Positions 41,758 to 47,712 of a stretch of DNA of 64,000 nucleotides are shown here, piece after piece. The position numbers and the translations under genes were made by a program. The first letter of the stretch is position 1. Every line of letters starts with the position of its first letter. The notes under the pieces were generated by a model. It had not been told where the DNA came from. It made no database searches and saw only the letters and a program-made list of their open reading frames with translations. This DNA is from Variovorax sp. ZS18.2.2 (lineage in GTDB: Bacteria; Pseudomonadota; Gammaproteobacteria; Burkholderiales; Burkholderiaceae_C). Where the stretch lies: assembly GCF_024701975.1 (NCBI RefSeq), contig NZ_JANLNM010000003.1, forward strand, positions 1 to 64,000, read 5' to 3'.

Positions 41758-42183
41758 TCAGAGCGTCTCCCAGACCTGAACGAGCCCGACCAGATGGACA
41801 AGGCCGAACACAAAGCAGATGGCCGAGCTCCACACCCAGAAGGCGCTCAGCCGCTGCCGGTCGAACACGAACAGCACCACGGCAACAAGCCCCCGCAGCA
41901 GGTAGACAGCAGTGATGGCGGGCAGCACGAATGCCAGCAACGGCAGCGGTTGCAGCACTCCCGCACCGGAGAGTGCGTATGCGGCCCAGACGCCCAGCAC
42001 GCCGGCGATCAGCAACGTGACGATCGGCGGATACCAATGCCCGGCCGCCGCGCCCACGGCCATGCGCTCGCCTGCGCCGAAGAAGCGATACCACGCGGGC
42101 CCACCGAAGATGACGCAGATGTGCAGCAGCGCGGCAATGGCGCTGAGTGCTGCGCCGACGATCAGGAAGATGTTGGGCGTCAC
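41758..42183 (-). CDS. Small membrane protein ending the kinase/VWA/PurA-like run
   Basis: This protein of about 141 residues starts at a GTG 8 bp after the PurA-like stop. It has four predicted segments (LIVGAALSAIAALLHICVIF, VTLLIAGVLGVWAAYALS, LLAFVLPAITAVYLLRGL, AICFVFGLVHLVGLV) with His and Tyr in loops. No known family. Tight spacing suggests it belongs to the unusual operon upstream. Confidence 0.7.
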   Translation of the reverse strand: MTPNIFLIVGAALSAIAALLHICVIFGGPAWYRFFGAGERMAVGAAAGHWYPPIVTLLIAGVLGVWAAYALSGAGVLQPLPLLAFVLPAITAVYLLRGLVAVVLFVFDRQRLSAFWVWSSAICFVFGLVHLVGLVQVWETL

Positions 42184-42191
42184 ACGGTCTT

Positions 42192-43526
42192 TCAGATGTG
42201 CTCTCGCGCACGCACGGTGTCGCGCGTCGGACCGAAGGCGCCGAAGCGTACCGGCAGGCCGGTGAAGGTTTCGACGCGCTCCGCCCACGCTCGCGCGGTG
42301 CCGATGGGGTGCGGTTCGTAGAGGGGCTGTGCGCCTTGCAGCAGCTGGGTCAATGCGTGCTGATGCCCGAGGTCCGGTTCGTCGCTGAACGGCAGTGATC
42401 CAACTTCGGCACCATCGGCCGTGCGGTAGCCCGTGCACCAGCGAAGGCCCGCGCCCTCGACGGCATCGAGGTGACTCGCCACCAACCCGTCGAGCGGCCC
42501 GACCGCCGCGAGCGCATAGCGCAGCAGCAACGCATCGGGATGGCCGCGACGGAACGCGCCCTGCCAGCCTTCGTCGGCGTTGTGCGGTTCGGCGAATCGC
42601 GCGTCGAGTGCGGGATCGTGCGTGGGCAATGGGCCCGGGCCATGACGCGTGAGGTAGCTGCGCAACACGCCGAAGTGCTGCACATGCGCATCGACGCCCG
42701 CGTCGTGCAGCACGGCCTCGACTGCGGCCGTTGAGATGGTGCTCCACGTCGTGTGCGGATGAAAGCCGTGCCACTCATCGAGCAGCACGCCCTGCGCGCC
42801 TTCGAACAGCACGGTGCCGGGACGCGCGAGCCTTGCACCGATGGCGTCGGCGCGTGCAGGGGGCGACAGGCGGACACATGGCGCCGCAGCGTCGAACCAG
42901 CGCTGGGCGAGCGAGGCGTCGGCTAGCAATGCCAGCTCCTGCGCGGCCTCGGGGTGCAATGGCGCCATGTCCGCGAACTCGCGGCGCAGTGCCACGCGCG
43001 AAGCCTCCAGCTTTTCGAGCGTGCGCGCACGATGCATGAGGTCGCCGTAGCGCAATGCATCGACGGGCGCAGCCAGCGCCTGCCGCACCGTCTCGCCGAC
43101 GCCCACACCGCAGCTGCCGTGTGCCGCTGTTCCCCTCGCCCATTCACGCAGCCGGCCCGCGGCCTGATGGAACGGCGTCGTCACGCGGCAGCGCGCATCG
43201 ATCTGCAAGCGCGCGAAGGCATCGGACACGCCCACGCGGCGCAGCGCCTCTTCCTCGACACGCAGCGCCGTCGGATGCACCACCACCGGGCTCGCGAGCA
43301 CCGTCGCCACGCCCGCATGAAAACTGCCGGCGCCGAACTGCGAGAAGGTGTGATGCCGCCCATCGGCCAGCACCACGTTGTGGCCGGCCTGTGCGCCGCC
43401 GTTGAAACGCACCACCGTGTGCGCCTGCAACGCGCCGCACAGGTGGTCGGTGAAGAGGCCCTTGCCGCAGTCCCCGAAGCCCAGGCCCAGCAGCGAGACG
43501 TAGCGCGTGGCCGCGGCGGTCGTCAC
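42192..43526 (-). CDS. Divergent adenylosuccinate synthetase paralogue (PurA-like)
   Basis: This 444-residue protein has the whole PurA fold. The GTP/IMP loop is GFGDCGKG (canonical WGDEGKGK), with the catalytic aspartate and lysine kept. Next is GGAQAGHNVV (canonical GGHNAGHT), with the histidine kept but Asn changed to Gln. FEGAQGVLLDEWHG keeps the active-site glutamine. The guanine-recognition TKLD is replaced by SHLD. It joins a nucleotide-like acceptor to an amino acid, or a similar ligation, in the cytoplasm, but ordinary AMP synthesis is unlikely given these changes and its setting. GTG start. It lies 15 bp after the VWA gene. Confidence 0.85.
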   Translation of the reverse strand: MTTAAATRYVSLLGLGFGDCGKGLFTDHLCGALQAHTVVRFNGGAQAGHNVVLADGRHHTFSQFGAGSFHAGVATVLASPVVVHPTALRVEEEALRRVGVSDAFARLQIDARCRVTTPFHQAAGRLREWARGTAAHGSCGVGVGETVRQALAAPVDALRYGDLMHRARTLEKLEASRVALRREFADMAPLHPEAAQELALLADASLAQRWFDAAAPCVRLSPPARADAIGARLARPGTVLFEGAQGVLLDEWHGFHPHTTWSTISTAAVEAVLHDAGVDAHVQHFGVLRSYLTRHGPGPLPTHDPALDARFAEPHNADEGWQGAFRRGHPDALLLRYALAAVGPLDGLVASHLDAVEGAGLRWCTGYRTADGAEVGSLPFSDEPDLGHQHALTQLLQGAQPLYEPHPIGTARAWAERVETFTGLPVRFGAFGPTRDTVRAREHI

Positions 43527-43541
43527 ACGGTGTTCAGCCGT

Positions 43542-44510
43542 TCAGCCGAAGAGCCGCTTCCACCACGACGACCGCGGTCCGCTGGGAGACGGCGGTGCGC
43601 GGCGCGGCGCGGTCGGGTCGAGCAGCGCGGCGTACGCATCGAGCGCGTGCAGCACGCCGCCCACGCGCTCCTTGGCCATGCCGGTCGCGCCCATCACCCT
43701 GGCGAGGCCGTCGAGGTTGGGCACGGCCTTCTCGGTGAGCGCGACGATGCCGGCAGCCACGGCGCAGGCATCGTCGGGCGAGTCCATGCAGATGACGTGA
43801 TCGCCCAGCAGTTCCCGCCAGCGCGGCTCGCAGCGGCGGCGACGCTGGGCGTCGGGGATCAGGAAGAACAGGTTCGTGGTCTCGGCCGCGGCGGCGATGA
43901 CTTCCTCGATGGGAATGTCCTCGTCGAGCTTCTCGCCGATGAGGCCTTCGATCTGGTGGCGCGAGACGGCGGGGTACGGCAGCTCGTCGCCGGTCACGAA
44001 CAGGTAGCCGCGCTTTTTGCGCTTTACCCAGCAGTCCATGTCGGTGTGCTGCGCCATCACGTAGAAGGCCAGCTCGTAGCTCTCTTCACCGCTGCCACCA
44101 CCGCCGCCTTCGAGATAACTCCAGGTAAGCCACTGATCCATGAGGTTGGCGGTCGATTCGAACTGGCCGACCTGCAGCGGTGCGCGGTCGGAGGTGGCGT
44201 CGCCGATGGCCATGAACATGAGCTGGGGGTCGGCCACGCCGCAGTCGGTCAGCAACTTCATGAAGGTGGGCAGCTCGCGGCGCGCGAGGGTCTGCGGGAT
44301 ATCGCCCATCGAGCCGGTGACGTCGAGCGCGAACACGATGCCCAGCGAGTTGGGGTGGTCGGCGTTGTCGCGCGACTCACGCACCTTGAGGCCGTGCGGG
44401 TTCATGAGCGCGTGCGTCGCGGTCTGCGTGAACACCTCGGCGCCTGGCTTGGCGGCGCGGTCGGCGATCAGCGCCGTGTGGGCGGCGTGCGAGTAGTTTC
44501 CGTAACCCAT
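43542..44510 (-). CDS. VWA-domain protein
   Basis: This 322-residue protein has a von Willebrand A domain beginning about residue 54. The metal-binding motif is DVTGSMG in IVFALDVTGSMGDIP. LMFMAIGDATSDRAPLQVG is the second metal-loop region, and a GGGGGSGEESYELA loop follows. The C-terminus is basic and aromatic (SWWKRLFG). Its length and lack of a signal recall TerY-like cytoplasmic VWA proteins. AAGGAG lies 7 bases before the ATG at 44510. The gene is 26 bp after the kinase-like gene, suggesting that they act together. Confidence 0.9.
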   Translation of the reverse strand: MGYGNYSHAAHTALIADRAAKPGAEVFTQTATHALMNPHGLKVRESRDNADHPNSLGIVFALDVTGSMGDIPQTLARRELPTFMKLLTDCGVADPQLMFMAIGDATSDRAPLQVGQFESTANLMDQWLTWSYLEGGGGGSGEESYELAFYVMAQHTDMDCWVKRKKRGYLFVTGDELPYPAVSRHQIEGLIGEKLDEDIPIEEVIAAAAETTNLFFLIPDAQRRRRCEPRWRELLGDHVICMDSPDDACAVAAGIVALTEKAVPNLDGLARVMGATGMAKERVGGVLHALDAYAALLDPTAPRRAPPSPSGPRSSWWKRLFG

Positions 44511-44536
44511 GGGGTGCTCCTTGGAATGTCTGTCAG

Positions 44537-45514
44537 TCAGCCGCCGAGGCGCGGCGCGGGATCGAAGTGAACGAACTGCGGCGCGCCGAAGGATTCGCGC
44601 GATGCGGCCGAGAGCGCCTGTTCGATGCCCTGCGCGCCGAGGCGTTCGCAGAAGGCGGTGTCTTCGCTGCACTGGCGCAGCAGCGTGACCAGTGGCGCGG
44701 GTGTGTGCGCACCGAAGCCAGGGTCGCCCGCAGCGCCGCCGTGCAGCACTGCGCGCACGGTCCACGCGGCCTGCGCGAGATCGCGCGCCGCAGCGGCGGC
44801 GTGCGCGGAACCCGAGGCCTGCCGCGCCTGCGACCAGCCGATGAGCAGCACGCCGTGGTCGCGCGGATGCACCAGCGCATGCGCGGGCGAAAGATCGCGG
44901 TGCGCCCAGCCGGCGCCATGCACGAAGGCCAGCACCTCGAGCATTCGGCGCCAGATCCACACGGCGTGGCGCGCATCGATGCCTTGCGGGTTGGCCTGCT
45001 GCACGTCCTGCAGGCTGCCCCAGAAACCGGTCGGGTGGCGCAGCACCAGCACCTGGCGCTTGCCGTCAGCCAGGCCTTCGGCGACGCCCGTGCCCAGTGG
45101 CTGCGGCAGCCGGCGCGTGAAGTAGACAGCGCCCGGAACAGACAGGTCTTGCAGCGCCTGCAGCACCGCGCCCTCGCGCAGCAGCACATCGTTGTCCGAC
45201 GCCTCGCGCGCCAGCTTCAAGGTGACGCGTTCGGGTACCGCACCGAGCCGTTCGGCGAACAGCACCTCGCTGTGCTCGCCGACACCCAGCGGCGCCAACA
45301 CGCGGTAGCGCGCGCCGCGCCATTGCACGATGCGCCCGCCTGCAACGTCCGCATTGGCACGCCGCAAGGCCGCACGGAAGCTCTCGCGCTCCACCGTTTC
45401 CTCGCCGCGCGTGATGGTCGCGCCGCAGTAGCTGCAGTTGACGGTGCGCCAGCGTGCGGCGCGTGGCAACGGCGCGGAGCATTGCGGGCAGCTCAGTGCG
45501 AGCAGCGACAGCAT
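44537..45514 (-). CDS. Zinc-ribbon protein kinase-like protein with altered active site
   Basis: This 325-residue protein starts with a zinc ribbon (CPQC near residue 9 and CSYCG near residue 27). A kinase-like domain follows: glycine loop LGVGEHSEVLF, lysine strand VTLKLA, and catalytic loop HRDLSPAHALVH. The Asn of HRDxxxxN is His, and the DFG aspartate is missing (LLIGWSQA). It is therefore a pseudokinase or an enzyme with unusual metal binding. It is the second gene of the minus-strand run, 12 bp after the CorC-type gene and 26 bp before the VWA gene. Confidence 0.82.
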   Translation of the reverse strand: MLSLLALSCPQCSAPLPRAARWRTVNCSYCGATITRGEETVERESFRAALRRANADVAGGRIVQWRGARYRVLAPLGVGEHSEVLFAERLGAVPERVTLKLAREASDNDVLLREGAVLQALQDLSVPGAVYFTRRLPQPLGTGVAEGLADGKRQVLVLRHPTGFWGSLQDVQQANPQGIDARHAVWIWRRMLEVLAFVHGAGWAHRDLSPAHALVHPRDHGVLLIGWSQARQASGSAHAAAAARDLAQAAWTVRAVLHGGAAGDPGFGAHTPAPLVTLLRQCSEDTAFCERLGAQGIEQALSAASRESFGAPQFVHFDPAPRLGG

Positions 45515-45526
45515 GCCCGTTCCTGC

Positions 45527-46837
45527 TTATTCTTCGCGCGGCGCCGCGGGGTCGGGCGAGGCCAGCACGCGATCGATGCGCCGGCCTTCGAGCGCCACGA
45601 TCTCGAAGATCCATCCCGCGCACTCGATGCGCTCGCTCACCGCGGGCAGGCGGCCCGACACCGACATCAGGAGGCCGGCCACCGTGTTGTAGCGGCCGCG
45701 CTCTTCATCGGGCAGTTCGCGGATGCCCAGGCGCGCACGCAGCTCCGACACGGGCATCAGGCCATCGAGCTCCCACACGCCATCGGGCCGCTCGCGCGCC
45801 CAGGCGTCGGTCTGCATGCCGGGCTGCAGTTCGCCGGTGATGGCTTCGAGCAGGTCGCGCGGTGTCATGAGGCCCTGCACCACGCCGTATTCGTCGACCA
45901 CGAACACCAGCCGGCCGGCGCGGGCGCGGAACTGCTCGAGCAGTTCCATGCCGGTGAGGGTCTCGGGCACGAACACGGCGGGCGTGGCCTCCTGGCCGAG
46001 CACACCCTTGTGGGCGGAACCCAGGCGCAGCAGATGCGCCACGCTGATCACGCCGACCACGTCGTCCAGCGAGTTGCGGCAGACCGGATACCACGAGTGC
46101 ACGAGGTTGAGCGCTGCCGCGTCCGCCACCTTCTGCAAGGCTTGCGACACGGTGTTGGAGGCGTCGAGCCATTCGATGTCGGCGCGCGGGATCATCAGCG
46201 ACGAGAGGCGCCTGTCATCGAGGTGAAACACGTTGCGCACCATCTGGTGCTCGTGCTGCTCGATCACGCCGGCGTCCACGCCTTCTTCGAGGCTGGCCGA
46301 GATTTCTTCTTCGGTCACCGAACGTGCGGCATTGGCATCGATGCGCAGCACCTTGAGCATGGTGGCCGTGGCGCCGGCCAGCAGCCACACGAAGGGCTTG
46401 GCGCCCTTGGCGAGACCCCGCATCGGACGCGACACCCAGCGCGCCACCGGCTCGGGGTAGAGCTGGCCGATGCGCTTGGGCACCAGTTCGCCGAAGATGA
46501 TCGTGAAGAAGGTGATGCAGGTCACCACCACCGCGGTAGAGGCGATGCTGGCGGGGCCTGCGCCCATGCCCATGTGCTCCATCCACACCGCGAGCGGCGC
46601 GGCGAAGGCGGCCTCGCCGACGATGCCGCTCAGCATGCCGATGGAGGTGATGCCGATCTGCACGGTCGAGAGGAATTGCGTTGGCGATTCCATCAACTTG
46701 AGCGCGGCGGCCGCGCCGGTGTCCCCCGTTTCGGCCAGGGCTGCGAGGCGTGCGCGCCGGCTGGTTGAAAGGGCCATTTCGGACATTGCGAACACCGCAT
46801 TGAGGGTGGTCAGCAAGGCCAGCAGCAAGACATCCAT
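45527..46837 (-). CDS. CNNM/CorC (HlyC) family membrane protein with CBS domains
   Basis: This 436-residue protein has an N-terminal DUF21 membrane domain (VLLLALLTTLNAVFAMSEMAL and STVQIGITSIGMLSG), a pair of CBS domains (MIPRADIEWLDASNTV and GRLVFVVDEYGVVQGLMTPRDLLEAI) and a C-terminal CorC/HlyC domain (YNTVAGLLMSVSGRLP). The family handles Mg2+ or Co2+ efflux, and the CBS pair can bind adenine nucleotides. The ATG at 46837 is preferred to a GTG at 46867, which would overlap the divergent apaH start. It heads the kinase/VWA/PurA-like run. Confidence 0.92.
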   Translation of the reverse strand: MDVLLLALLTTLNAVFAMSEMALSTSRRARLAALAETGDTGAAAALKLMESPTQFLSTVQIGITSIGMLSGIVGEAAFAAPLAVWMEHMGMGAGPASIASTAVVVTCITFFTIIFGELVPKRIGQLYPEPVARWVSRPMRGLAKGAKPFVWLLAGATATMLKVLRIDANAARSVTEEEISASLEEGVDAGVIEQHEHQMVRNVFHLDDRRLSSLMIPRADIEWLDASNTVSQALQKVADAAALNLVHSWYPVCRNSLDDVVGVISVAHLLRLGSAHKGVLGQEATPAVFVPETLTGMELLEQFRARAGRLVFVVDEYGVVQGLMTPRDLLEAITGELQPGMQTDAWARERPDGVWELDGLMPVSELRARLGIRELPDEERGRYNTVAGLLMSVSGRLPAVSERIECAGWIFEIVALEGRRIDRVLASPDPAAPREE

Positions 46838-46860
46838 GAACAGGGGGAGAGAATGAGGGA

Positions 46861-47712
46861 ATGGCACTTTACTGTATCGGCGACGTTCAGGGCTGCGACC
46901 CTGCCCTCGGGCGGCTGCTCCGCGAGATCGATTTCTCCCCCAGCCGCGACACCCTCGTGCTGCTCGGCGACCTGGTCAACCGGGGGCCGGATTCAGCGGC
47001 CGTGCTGCGCCGCGTGCAGGGCTACGGCGCCTCGGCGCGGAGCCTTCTGGGCAACCACGACCTGCACCTCCTGGGCGTGGCGCACGGCGCGCGCAAGGCC
47101 GGCCGCAAGGACACGCTGGCCGACCTTTTGGCTGCGCCCGATAGCGAAGCGATGCTCGACTGGGTGCGCAACCAGCACATGGCGCTGCATATGCAGATCG
47201 GTGGCGGCGACCTGCTGATGGTCCACGCCGGCGTGCTGCCGCAGTGGACGGTCGGCGACACGCTCGCGCTGGCGTCGGAGGTCGAATCGGTGCTGCGCGG
47301 CCCGGCGCTCGGCGACTTCCTGCTCACCATGTACGGCGACGAGCCGACGCAATGGAGCGACACGCTCACCGGCAGCGCGCGCCTGCGCGTCATCGTCAAC
47401 GCGCTCACGCGCCTTCGCTACTGCACGCCCGAGAGCGTGATGGACTTCGAGACCAAGGACGGCGCGATCCCCGCGCCCGAAGGCCTCTTGCCGTGGTTCG
47501 ACATGCCGGGCCGCAAGACCGCCGCGGCCACCGTCGCTTTTGGCCACTGGTCCACGCTCGGCTGGCTCTCGCGGCCCGACCTGCTCTCGACCGACACGGG
47601 CTGCGTCTGGGGCGGGTGCCTGAGCGCAGTGCGCATCGGTGCGACGCTGGGCGAGCGAGAGTTGATCCAGGTGAAGTGCGAAGCGGCGCAGAAGCCCGGC
47701 AAGTCGGCCTGA
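46861..47712 (+). CDS. apaH: Bis(5'-nucleosyl)-tetraphosphatase, symmetrical
   Basis: This 283-residue calcineurin-like phosphoesterase hydrolyses Ap4A to two ADP and controls alarmone and NpnN-RNA-cap levels. Metal motifs are all present: GDVQGC near the start, GDLVNRGPDS near residue 36, and LLGNHDLHLLG near 60. The histidines LMVHAGVLPQW and FGHWSTLG complete the site. GAGGG precedes the ATG. Here it is divergent from the CorC gene of the kinase/VWA/PurA-like run with only 23 bp between starts, so regulation may be shared. The usual ksgA/apaG neighbours are absent. Confidence 0.96.
   Translation: MALYCIGDVQGCDPALGRLLREIDFSPSRDTLVLLGDLVNRGPDSAAVLRRVQGYGASARSLLGNHDLHLLGVAHGARKAGRKDTLADLLAAPDSEAMLDWVRNQHMALHMQIGGGDLLMVHAGVLPQWTVGDTLALASEVESVLRGPALGDFLLTMYGDEPTQWSDTLTGSARLRVIVNALTRLRYCTPESVMDFETKDGAIPAPEGLLPWFDMPGRKTAAATVAFGHWSTLGWLSRPDLLSTDTGCVWGGCLSAVRIGATLGERELIQVKCEAAQKPGKSA

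Follow-up and report, generated by a model that had tools for sequence, protein, structure and literature searches.

A stretch of 64,000 nucleotides from Variovorax sp. ZS18.2.2 (contig NZ_JANLNM010000003.1, positions 1 to 64,000; this whole stretch is called the window here) carries a run of four genes encoding a zinc-ribbon kinase-like protein, a VWA-like protein, a PurA-like protein of the adenylosuccinate synthetase superfamily and a small membrane protein. We found that the VWA-like and PurA-like genes are a reciprocal, near-obligate pair and constitute the core of a module that recurs in bacteria and phages. The PurA-like protein keeps catalytic residues of PurA and has lost residues of its substrate sites, the kinase-like protein is, judging by its own catalytic residues, a pseudokinase, and in some lineages the module is linked to genes of nicotinamide adenine dinucleotide (NAD) metabolism. 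We tentatively propose, as a reading that falls somewhat short of an even chance, that this cassette, common to bacteria and large phages, modifies or repairs an NAD-pool nucleotide or a related purine nucleotide.

VWA-like and PurA-like genes are a near-obligate pair

Scanning Genome Taxonomy Database (GTDB) genomes with a five-row VWA alignment recovered at least 529 relatives, of which the best 80, corresponding to 79 bacterial loci, were analysed; these were ranked by their match to the window VWA-like protein, and the bacterial counts lean towards window-like copies. A scan of IMG/VR gave 141 VWA-like relatives, 80 of which were kept as a first viral set. A second viral set of 76 loci was seeded on phage-type VWA sequences, with contigs partly those of the first set, and a third of 80 loci was seeded on the PurA-like protein. 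The three viral sets share contigs, making their counts non-independent, and two loci counted as viral, L091 and L092, resemble Variovorax chromosome fragments. L009 and L021 are one locus; the open reading frame (ORF) set excludes L001, L002 and L005-L008 (duplicates or controls), and the neighbour clustering and residue counts exclude L009-L011.

Among these loci, a PurA-like gene was present within 4 kb of the VWA-like gene in 76/79 bacterial loci, in 75/80 loci of the first viral set and in 74/76 of the second. Reverse seeding on the PurA-like protein identified a VWA-like gene in 77 of the 80 viral loci, and the three remaining loci are cut by contig ends, which lie 3, 211 and 978 bp from the start of the PurA-like gene. 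Several of the VWA-seeded loci that lack a PurA-like gene are also truncated: 92 bases are left on the contig in the bacterial locus L071, the viral loci L091, L103 and L105 stand at contig ends, and L157 has 1.2 kb left. The viral locus L169 has 7.9 kb left, and no PurA-like gene was found in the bacterial loci L068 and L085, though about 8 kb of downstream sequence is present. Of the gene pairs measured, 55/75 in bacteria and 35/75 in viruses are separated by no more than 20 bp, with start positions being approximate in the home-made script used for gene calling. The kinase-like gene is present in 78/79 bacterial loci and in 23/80, 54/76 and 52/80 loci of the first, second and reverse-seeded viral sets, respectively. 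We conclude that the VWA-like and PurA-like proteins almost certainly act together. Because the run is conserved in other genomes, it represents more than a chance arrangement, and the proposal of a preliminary description of the window, made from the sequence alone, that its genes form a module was borne out. As separate observations, the Myxococcus loci L075, L076, L078 and L080 carry an additional VWA-like gene after the PurA-like gene, and two tandem VWA-like genes precede it in L079, L082 and L084, among others.

The best-80 loci come from Variovorax, Massilia, Duganella, Rugamonas, Accumulibacter, Chitinilyticum, Verrucomicrobia, Fibrobacteria, Myxococcota, Chloroflexi and others, reaching far beyond Burkholderiales. 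Carriers are patchy, amounting to 4/399 genomes of the order and 5/299 of the phylum, both counts including the window's own genome; L373 and L374 are two further random-sample carriers with kinase-like, VWA-like and PurA-like genes. In a tblastn search of 50,697 phage records with the window proteins, 206 records matched the VWA-like, 226 the PurA-like and 190 the kinase-like protein, the PurA-like matches including 190 from phages of mycobacterial hosts, for the most part M. smegmatis mc2 155. Mycobacterium phage Pleione shares the module order, with genes for a kinase (265), a hypothetical VWA-like protein (266) and a PurA-like protein (268), plus a small gene (267) between the last two. 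Vibrio phage phiKT1024 likewise carries a VWA-like gene, a small gene and a PurA-like gene, with a NADAR gene approximately 1.2 kb upstream of the VWA-like gene.

The PurA-like protein keeps catalytic residues and has a replaced IMP/aspartate site

The window PurA-like protein matches Pfam PF00709 (E 4e-56), and its AlphaFold2 model (predicted local distance difference test, pLDDT, 89.6) has E. coli PurA 1cg3 as its best PDB match (Foldseek E 1e-29), which firmly supports a predicted PurA identity at superfamily and fold level. It scores well below the equivalog cut-offs, with 131.5 vs 395.55 bits for TIGR00184 and 150.4 vs 402 bits for NF002223. A separate canonical purA was present in 15/15 carrier genomes searched (in G409 as two contig-end pieces). 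In carriers, the canonical copies share 46-62% identity with E. coli PurA and the PurA-like copies 30-35%; the mean for the PurA-like family is approximately 27%.

We compared 158 PurA-like sequences (76 bacterial, 77 viral-labelled, the window copy and four added by hand, L011 and L178-L180) with 17 canonical PurA sequences, using E. coli numbering. In addition to fold and GTP loop, the family shares with PurA Asp13 and Lys16 (156 each, the other two being gaps), His41 (158), Gln224 (156), Thr239 (150) and Asp333 (152). By contrast, N38 is replaced by Gln in 156 sequences, T129 by Cys in 141, V273 by His in 156 and T301 by Gln in 154, as placed by alignment only. The residues N38, T129, R143, T301 and R303, each found in 17/17 canonical sequences, are retained in 2, 2, 9, 0 and 25 of the 158. 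From the E. coli literature, we take the substituted positions to contact the IMP (inosine monophosphate) phosphate, the ribose and aspartate. Because the catalytic residues are kept and the IMP/aspartate-site residues are replaced, the substrate appears to have changed, and the protein probably still transfers a phosphoryl group to a purine-like oxygen. A substrate other than plain IMP and aspartate is likely. The concern that the gene might be a plain purA copy for AMP synthesis, raised in the preliminary description together with a lack of co-conservation as grounds for dropping the module idea, was not substantiated, and neither was the other.

In a FastTree phylogeny of 176 sequences, the 158 PurA-like proteins formed one clade outside PurA and the PurZ of phage S-2L, the only PurZ included (weak support for this node, 0.51; next node 0.96). 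One group within it comprises 59 viral-labelled sequences and four bacterial sequences linked to NrtR-type regulator genes; a second comprises 77 bacterial and 17 viral-labelled sequences, with L093 apart from both. The nesting of bacterial groups among phage ones suggests that bacteria captured PurA-like genes from phages at least twice.

PurZ/DgsS, the 2-amino(deoxy)adenylosuccinate synthetase of Z-genome phages (7odx, 6fko), is likewise a phage PurA paralogue with an altered substrate pocket. However, Asp13 is replaced by Ser in 147/147 phage PurZ sequences according to passages of PMC12884076, and the PurA-like family has Asp at this position wherever it is aligned. A PurZ identity was rejected on the basis of the retained Asp13 and the tree position.

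A predicted pseudokinase is the third component

The AlphaFold2 model of the window kinase-like protein (pLDDT 86.9) gave 1998 PDB matches at E<=0.001, the best being 2buj (E 8e-11), and the predicted protein-kinase fold is a firm assignment; the Pfam Pkinase match is sub-threshold (17.8 vs 31.7 bits). Counting gaps as absences, one or both catalytic Asp residues are missing in 77/78 bacterial and 24/24 viral-labelled kinase-like proteins. The bacterial copies retain the VAIK Lys in 73/78, the HRD Asp in 30/78 and the DFG Asp in 2/78 cases, the last being Gly in 75/78; the viral-labelled copies retain them in 18/24, 0/24 and 11/24, respectively. HRD and DFG Asp occur together in 1/78 bacterial and 0/24 viral-labelled sequences, and the window copy retains HRD and has Gly at the DFG Asp. 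Judged by these residues, the kinase-like protein is a pseudokinase, and an active-kinase signalling pair was rejected on account of the catalytic Asp losses. Of the earlier suggestion that a nucleotide product is made under the control of a signalling pair, a nucleotide-related role is likely, and a phosphorylating pair is not supported.

The N-terminal region is variable. Each of the ribbon Cys residues is present in 76/78 bacterial kinase-like sequences, and the ribbon is N-terminal. An HPD motif occurs within the first 110 residues of 67/78 kinase-like proteins from the first two viral sets plus L003, a sample in which some contigs recur and which includes L091 and L092, both Variovorax-like. 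Among seven proteins scanned with Pfam DnaJ, L111 and L146 scored above the cut-off, L003, L104, L373 and L374 below it, and L137 gave no match; in Pleione, an HPD motif and a weak DnaJ match stand where bacterial copies have the zinc ribbon. Such J-domain or J-like fusions were observed mostly in phages, plus two small-genome bacteria. Given the Asp losses, the exchange of ribbon and J-motif and the patchy presence, the third component resembles an adaptor-like pseudokinase that is often missing and has swappable N-terminal ends.

The VWA assignment is weaker than the PurA and kinase-fold assignments. D63, T65, G66 and S67 of a motif like the metal ion-dependent adhesion site (MIDAS) are invariant in 16/16 aligned sequences, and the VWA-like profile partially matches E. 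coli YegL, with 63% probability over 40 columns. The window protein gave no VWA match in Pfam, NCBIfam or PDB sequences, and the profile gave no PDB sequence match at E<=10.

NAD genes and NrtR-type regulators accompany the module in some lineages

In L035, a Rhodocyclaceae metagenome-assembled genome, an NrtR-type gene is divergent from an operon encoding PncA-like, PncB, NadE, NMNAT-Nudix, kinase-like, VWA-like and PurA-like proteins; PncB and NadE exceed NCBIfam cut-offs, the PncA-like call is weak and sub-threshold, and NMNAT-Nudix is a best match below threshold. L048 has the same gene set, and L052 and L054 have PncB, NadE and NMNAT. Five Massilia loci carry an NrtR-type gene and an SPFH-domain gene followed by the module, and in Janthinobacterium (L053) the NrtR-type gene immediately precedes the kinase-like gene. 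Overall, an NrtR-type gene lies beside the module in 8/79 bacterial loci. In the phylum sample (299 genomes), all four carriers besides the window genome, belonging to three genera, have an NrtR-type gene divergent from the VWA-PurA pair, and no kinase-like gene was found in these four. NAD-linked loci fall into both PurA-like clades. Pfam NrtR_WHD was above its cut-off in 2/2 proteins scanned, and NF050029 was the best NCBIfam match in 4/4. The gap between the NrtR-type and VWA-like genes contains a perfect 24-bp palindrome in L178 (24/24); at the module promoter, palindromes of 22/24 were scored in L179 and L180, and weak or no palindromes in L035, L042 and L048, all without a chance control.

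The linkage extends to phages, where a NAPRTase-family (PncB/NAMPT type) gene was detected on 14/48 large contigs. In 8 of these 14, the distance to the module is at most 8 kb, vs 0.84 expected; excluding four contigs where this proximity was known beforehand, the count is 4/10 vs 0.56 expected (P 0.0015).

Several observations weigh against an NAD-related reading. Most carriers, Variovorax included, have no NAD-gene link: NAD-gene seeds matched 10/79 bacterial loci (L035, L042, L043, L047-L050 and L052-L054) and none of the Variovorax, Duganella, Verrucomicrobia, Myxococcota or Chloroflexi loci, and of six Rhodocyclaceae-type loci, L034 and L036 are without NAD genes. NAMPT falls within the stretch read in only 7/80, 3/76 and 6/80 loci of the three overlapping viral sets, and phage modules also sit among RNA-repair and ligase genes. 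When all random genome samples were pooled, the NrtR-type gene was present in 4/8 carriers besides the window genome (absent from G350, G139, G782 and G846), and the window genome gave no match to a Massilia NrtR-type protein in a search run without a positive control. The regulator itself is ambiguous, as the NrtR-type proteins score far under the NF050029 cut-off (142-159 vs 400 bits) and also pass Pfam AraR_C, at lower scores; passages of PMC4666351 describe an NrtR-family protein that governs arabinose use in Bacteroides. A search of four genomes for the L178 palindrome recovered the original site only, in one of them (G552), and because of this uniqueness the module-linked regulator may be specific to the module and respond to another signal. 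Taking both sides together, we consider it close to evenly balanced whether module function touches NAD or ADP-ribose.

Genomic context of the module

The four window genes lie on the minus strand with intergenic gaps of 26, 15 and 8 bp, confirming the arrangement first described, and AAGGAG precedes the ATG of the VWA-like gene (Table 1). The G+C content of the run is 69.8% vs 67.1% for the window. The kinase-like gene is preceded by a co-oriented corC-type gene whose end lies 12 bp away, for which reason the transcription unit may begin further upstream. In the best-80 bacterial set, 18 Variovorax loci have corC immediately 5' of the module, which speaks for an ordinary chromosomal place of the module in this genus. 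Matches to corC (n=23) and apaH (n=20) are all on Variovorax or Variovorax-like contigs, and elsewhere the module recurs without these flanking genes, a check put forward in the preliminary description. The membrane protein, previously counted as part of the module, has no family match in Pfam or NCBIfam, and its 15 phmmer matches are all in Variovorax loci, one locus being counted twice; the membrane gene is probably outside the core, and with corC and apaH it was rejected as a module part given the same restricted distribution. The corC-module arrangement is also present on the IMG/VR 'viral' contigs L091 and L092.

Table 1 Coordinates of the window genes and motifs and of features at related loci
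Feature	Position	Strand	Basis
Kinase-like gene, predicted zinc-ribbon pseudokinase, 325 aa	45514-44537	-	ORF list, Pfam, AlphaFold2/PDB match
N-terminal zinc ribbon CxxC...CxxC (C9, C12, C27, C30) of the pseudokinase	45425..45490	-	Residue counts
VWA-like gene, 322 aa, core	44510-43542	-	MIDAS-like motif; phrog_2971 match E 1e-47
MIDAS-like D63-V-T65-G-S67 of the VWA-like protein	44310..44324	-	16-sequence alignment
PurA-like gene, adenylosuccinate synthetase superfamily, 444 aa, GTG start, core	43526-42192	-	Pfam, AlphaFold2/Foldseek
GTP/catalytic loop GFGDCGKG of the PurA-like protein	43458..43481	-	D19, K22 = Asp13, Lys16 of E. coli PurA
Small membrane protein gene, 141 aa, GTG start, lineage-specific	42183-41758	-	phmmer; no family match
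corC-type CNNM/CBS gene, context only	45527-46867	-	CNNM, CBS, CorC_HlyC by Pfam
SPFH/Band 7 protein between NrtR-type gene and module, Massilia	L042:6036-7010		Pfam
J-domain/J-like segment fused to pseudokinase	L374:8716-9807, L111:6839-7909, L003:3523-4653		HPD/DnaJ scan
Coiled-coil-like protein, ~115 aa	L133:7507-8001; L145:7628-7999		No Pfam match in one member scanned

In 33 viral loci, a member of the R2K-clade ATP-grasp cluster is encoded downstream of the VWA-PurA pair (for example, L222:3910-4665). A coiled-coil-like protein of approximately 115 aa (GAFxxSLxRNNKQIRxDRA...NMLDLSP...) is encoded directly 5' of the VWA-like gene in 60 viral loci, repeated contigs included, and may be a fourth partner. 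In Rhizobium phage Y65, the VWA-PurA pair is preceded at a distance of a few kb by a PRTase_3 gene (L378:534-1385) and a Nudix gene (1637-2206). Pfam does not support the NMN adenylyltransferase annotation under which the Nudix gene was deposited, and no PRTase_3 gene of this kind was found near other modules. PRTase_3 genes are linked to Ter systems.

Discussion

We infer the following chemistry, substrate class and helper roles for the cassette. Using GTP, the PurA-like protein would phosphorylate a purine nucleotide other than plain IMP at its 6-oxo group, and an amine, not necessarily aspartate, would then displace the phosphate on the purine. The likeliest substrate class would be an NAD-pool nucleotide, such as deamino-NAD or an ADP-ribose derivative, the exact substrate being a guess, and the cassette would repair or modify NAD or ADP-ribose. 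Assembly or gating of the PurA-like enzyme would fall to the VWA-like protein, acting via its metal site, and to the pseudokinase, an adaptor that, in phages, would recruit Hsp70 via its J-domain. In its fullest form, this proposal describes a phage-born system making or restoring a modified NAD or ADP-ribose, in which the purine of an NAD-pool dinucleotide is aminated or conjugated by a PurA-like protein that a metal-binding VWA partner and an Hsp70-recruiting pseudokinase hold in place; bacteria would have captured it at least twice, in some cases under an ADP-ribose-type regulator or in an NAD-salvage operon, with the J-domain swapped for a zinc ribbon. That every part of this fuller version holds is unlikely.

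The cassette may instead serve RNA or DNA base modification or repair, with the PurA-like protein acting on a purine in nucleic acid or its precursor, through a PurZ-like logic or on hypoxanthine in RNA. PurZ offers a precedent of a phage PurA paralogue remaking a base, and the recurrent neighbours across 156 viral loci (repeated contigs included) are ATP-dependent DNA ligase (40), R2K ATP-grasp (33), HAD_SAK (26), RNA ligase (25), TROVE (14) and RtcB (8). However, these clusters were named from one Pfam-scanned member each, related contigs inflate the phage counts, and RNA- or DNA-repair genes were not noticed among recurrent bacterial neighbours, which were read by eye. The retained Asp13, a Ser in phage PurZ, and the presence of NAD-linked loci in both PurA-like clades also argue against base modification, which we consider improbable.

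Alternatively, the PurA-like protein could be a GTP-dependent switch or scaffold with no ligase activity, and the cassette a chaperone-like assembly device built from a J-domain pseudokinase and a VWA protein. The frequent HPD motif, the pseudokinase state and the loss of Asp- and IMP-site residues fit such a device, and passages of PMC7824862 describe MoxR-vWA chaperone pairs and J-domain co-chaperones in jumbo phages. However, D13, K16, H41 and Q224 are kept in at least 156/158 sequences, and the new Q38, H273 and Q301 are as invariant as the catalytic residues, for which reason a changed substrate fits better than lost catalysis. A switch or scaffold is accordingly a rather poor prospect.

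It is very unlikely that the cassette is a phosphorylation signalling module of the TerY-P kind with the PurA-like enzyme as its output, a resemblance noted in the preliminary description. In passages of PMC11090510, the TerY-P triad consists of a VWA protein, a PP2C phosphatase and a Ser/Thr kinase with a C-terminal zinc ribbon. The module likewise combines a zinc-ribbon kinase fold and a VWA-like protein in one run, PADLOC returned only generic kinase matches, among them weak PD-T4-6 kinase profiles (E 2e-9), and E. coli K-12 has a set of similar composition beside an HSP70-family gene, with yegD (HSP70 family), yegI (kinase), pphC (PP2C) and yegL (VWA) together at L212:3675-9129, which also parallels a J-domain pseudokinase with a VWA protein. 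By contrast, the module has a pseudokinase, an N-terminal ribbon and the PurA-like enzyme as its core. PP2C is absent from the four window genes, as first described, and none was recognised in recurrent neighbour clusters, which were only partly scanned. The kinase-like protein matches the YegI profile with 0.7% probability, and the VWA-like protein has no convincing profile similarity to YegL beyond the MIDAS region, leaving its kinship to TerY not demonstrable. Furthermore, 57/80 loci of the first viral set lack the kinase-like gene, none was found in the four NrtR-type genomes, and the VWA-PurA pair stays. An ordinary extra purA for AMP synthesis, which shares the fold and superfamily, is scarcely credible and was rejected given the equivalog scores far short of cut-off, the coexisting canonical purA and the conserved replacements at the IMP/aspartate site.

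As far as open-licence papers were searched, no description of the module as a unit, of its bacterial homologues or of an NAD link was found, and the module is absent from the searched passages of PMC5343134, PMC12839542, PMC7159879, PMC11090510, PMC4431377 and PMC7824862. The initial view that no such system had been described holds to this extent. However, the same gene order already exists in cluster C mycobacteriophages (Bixzunavirus), where the genes are annotated singly as kinase, hypothetical protein, and PurA-like or 2-aminooxy adenylosuccinate synthetase; the last (phrog_1211, 'PurA-like adenylosuccinate synthetase') belongs to the same protein family as the window protein. Phage NAD+ salvage and reconstitution genes, among them the Adps-Namat pathway of NAD+ reconstitution (NARP1) described in passages of PMC12774641, are related insofar as some phage modules cluster with NAMPT and NMNAT; they differ in that the module genes do not encode those enzymes and most carriers lack them nearby, no search having been aimed at Adps. 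Overall, the preliminary interpretation is partly supported. We regard the module as categorically new because it falls outside the definitions of its nearest kinds, TerY-P and PurZ, and its novelty as a kind would fall if its product were a known nucleotide.

Collectively, these findings describe a cassette present in betaproteobacteria, Myxococcota, Verrucomicrobia, Fibrobacteria, Chloroflexi and many large phages, for which the existing functional label is PurA-like. Its active site points to PurA-type chemistry on a non-IMP substrate, and the genes beside it in some lineages suggest a link to NAD. The phage carriers make the module directly testable. If the NAD reading is true, it would add an NAD or purine derivative to bacterial physiology and to phage-host conflict.

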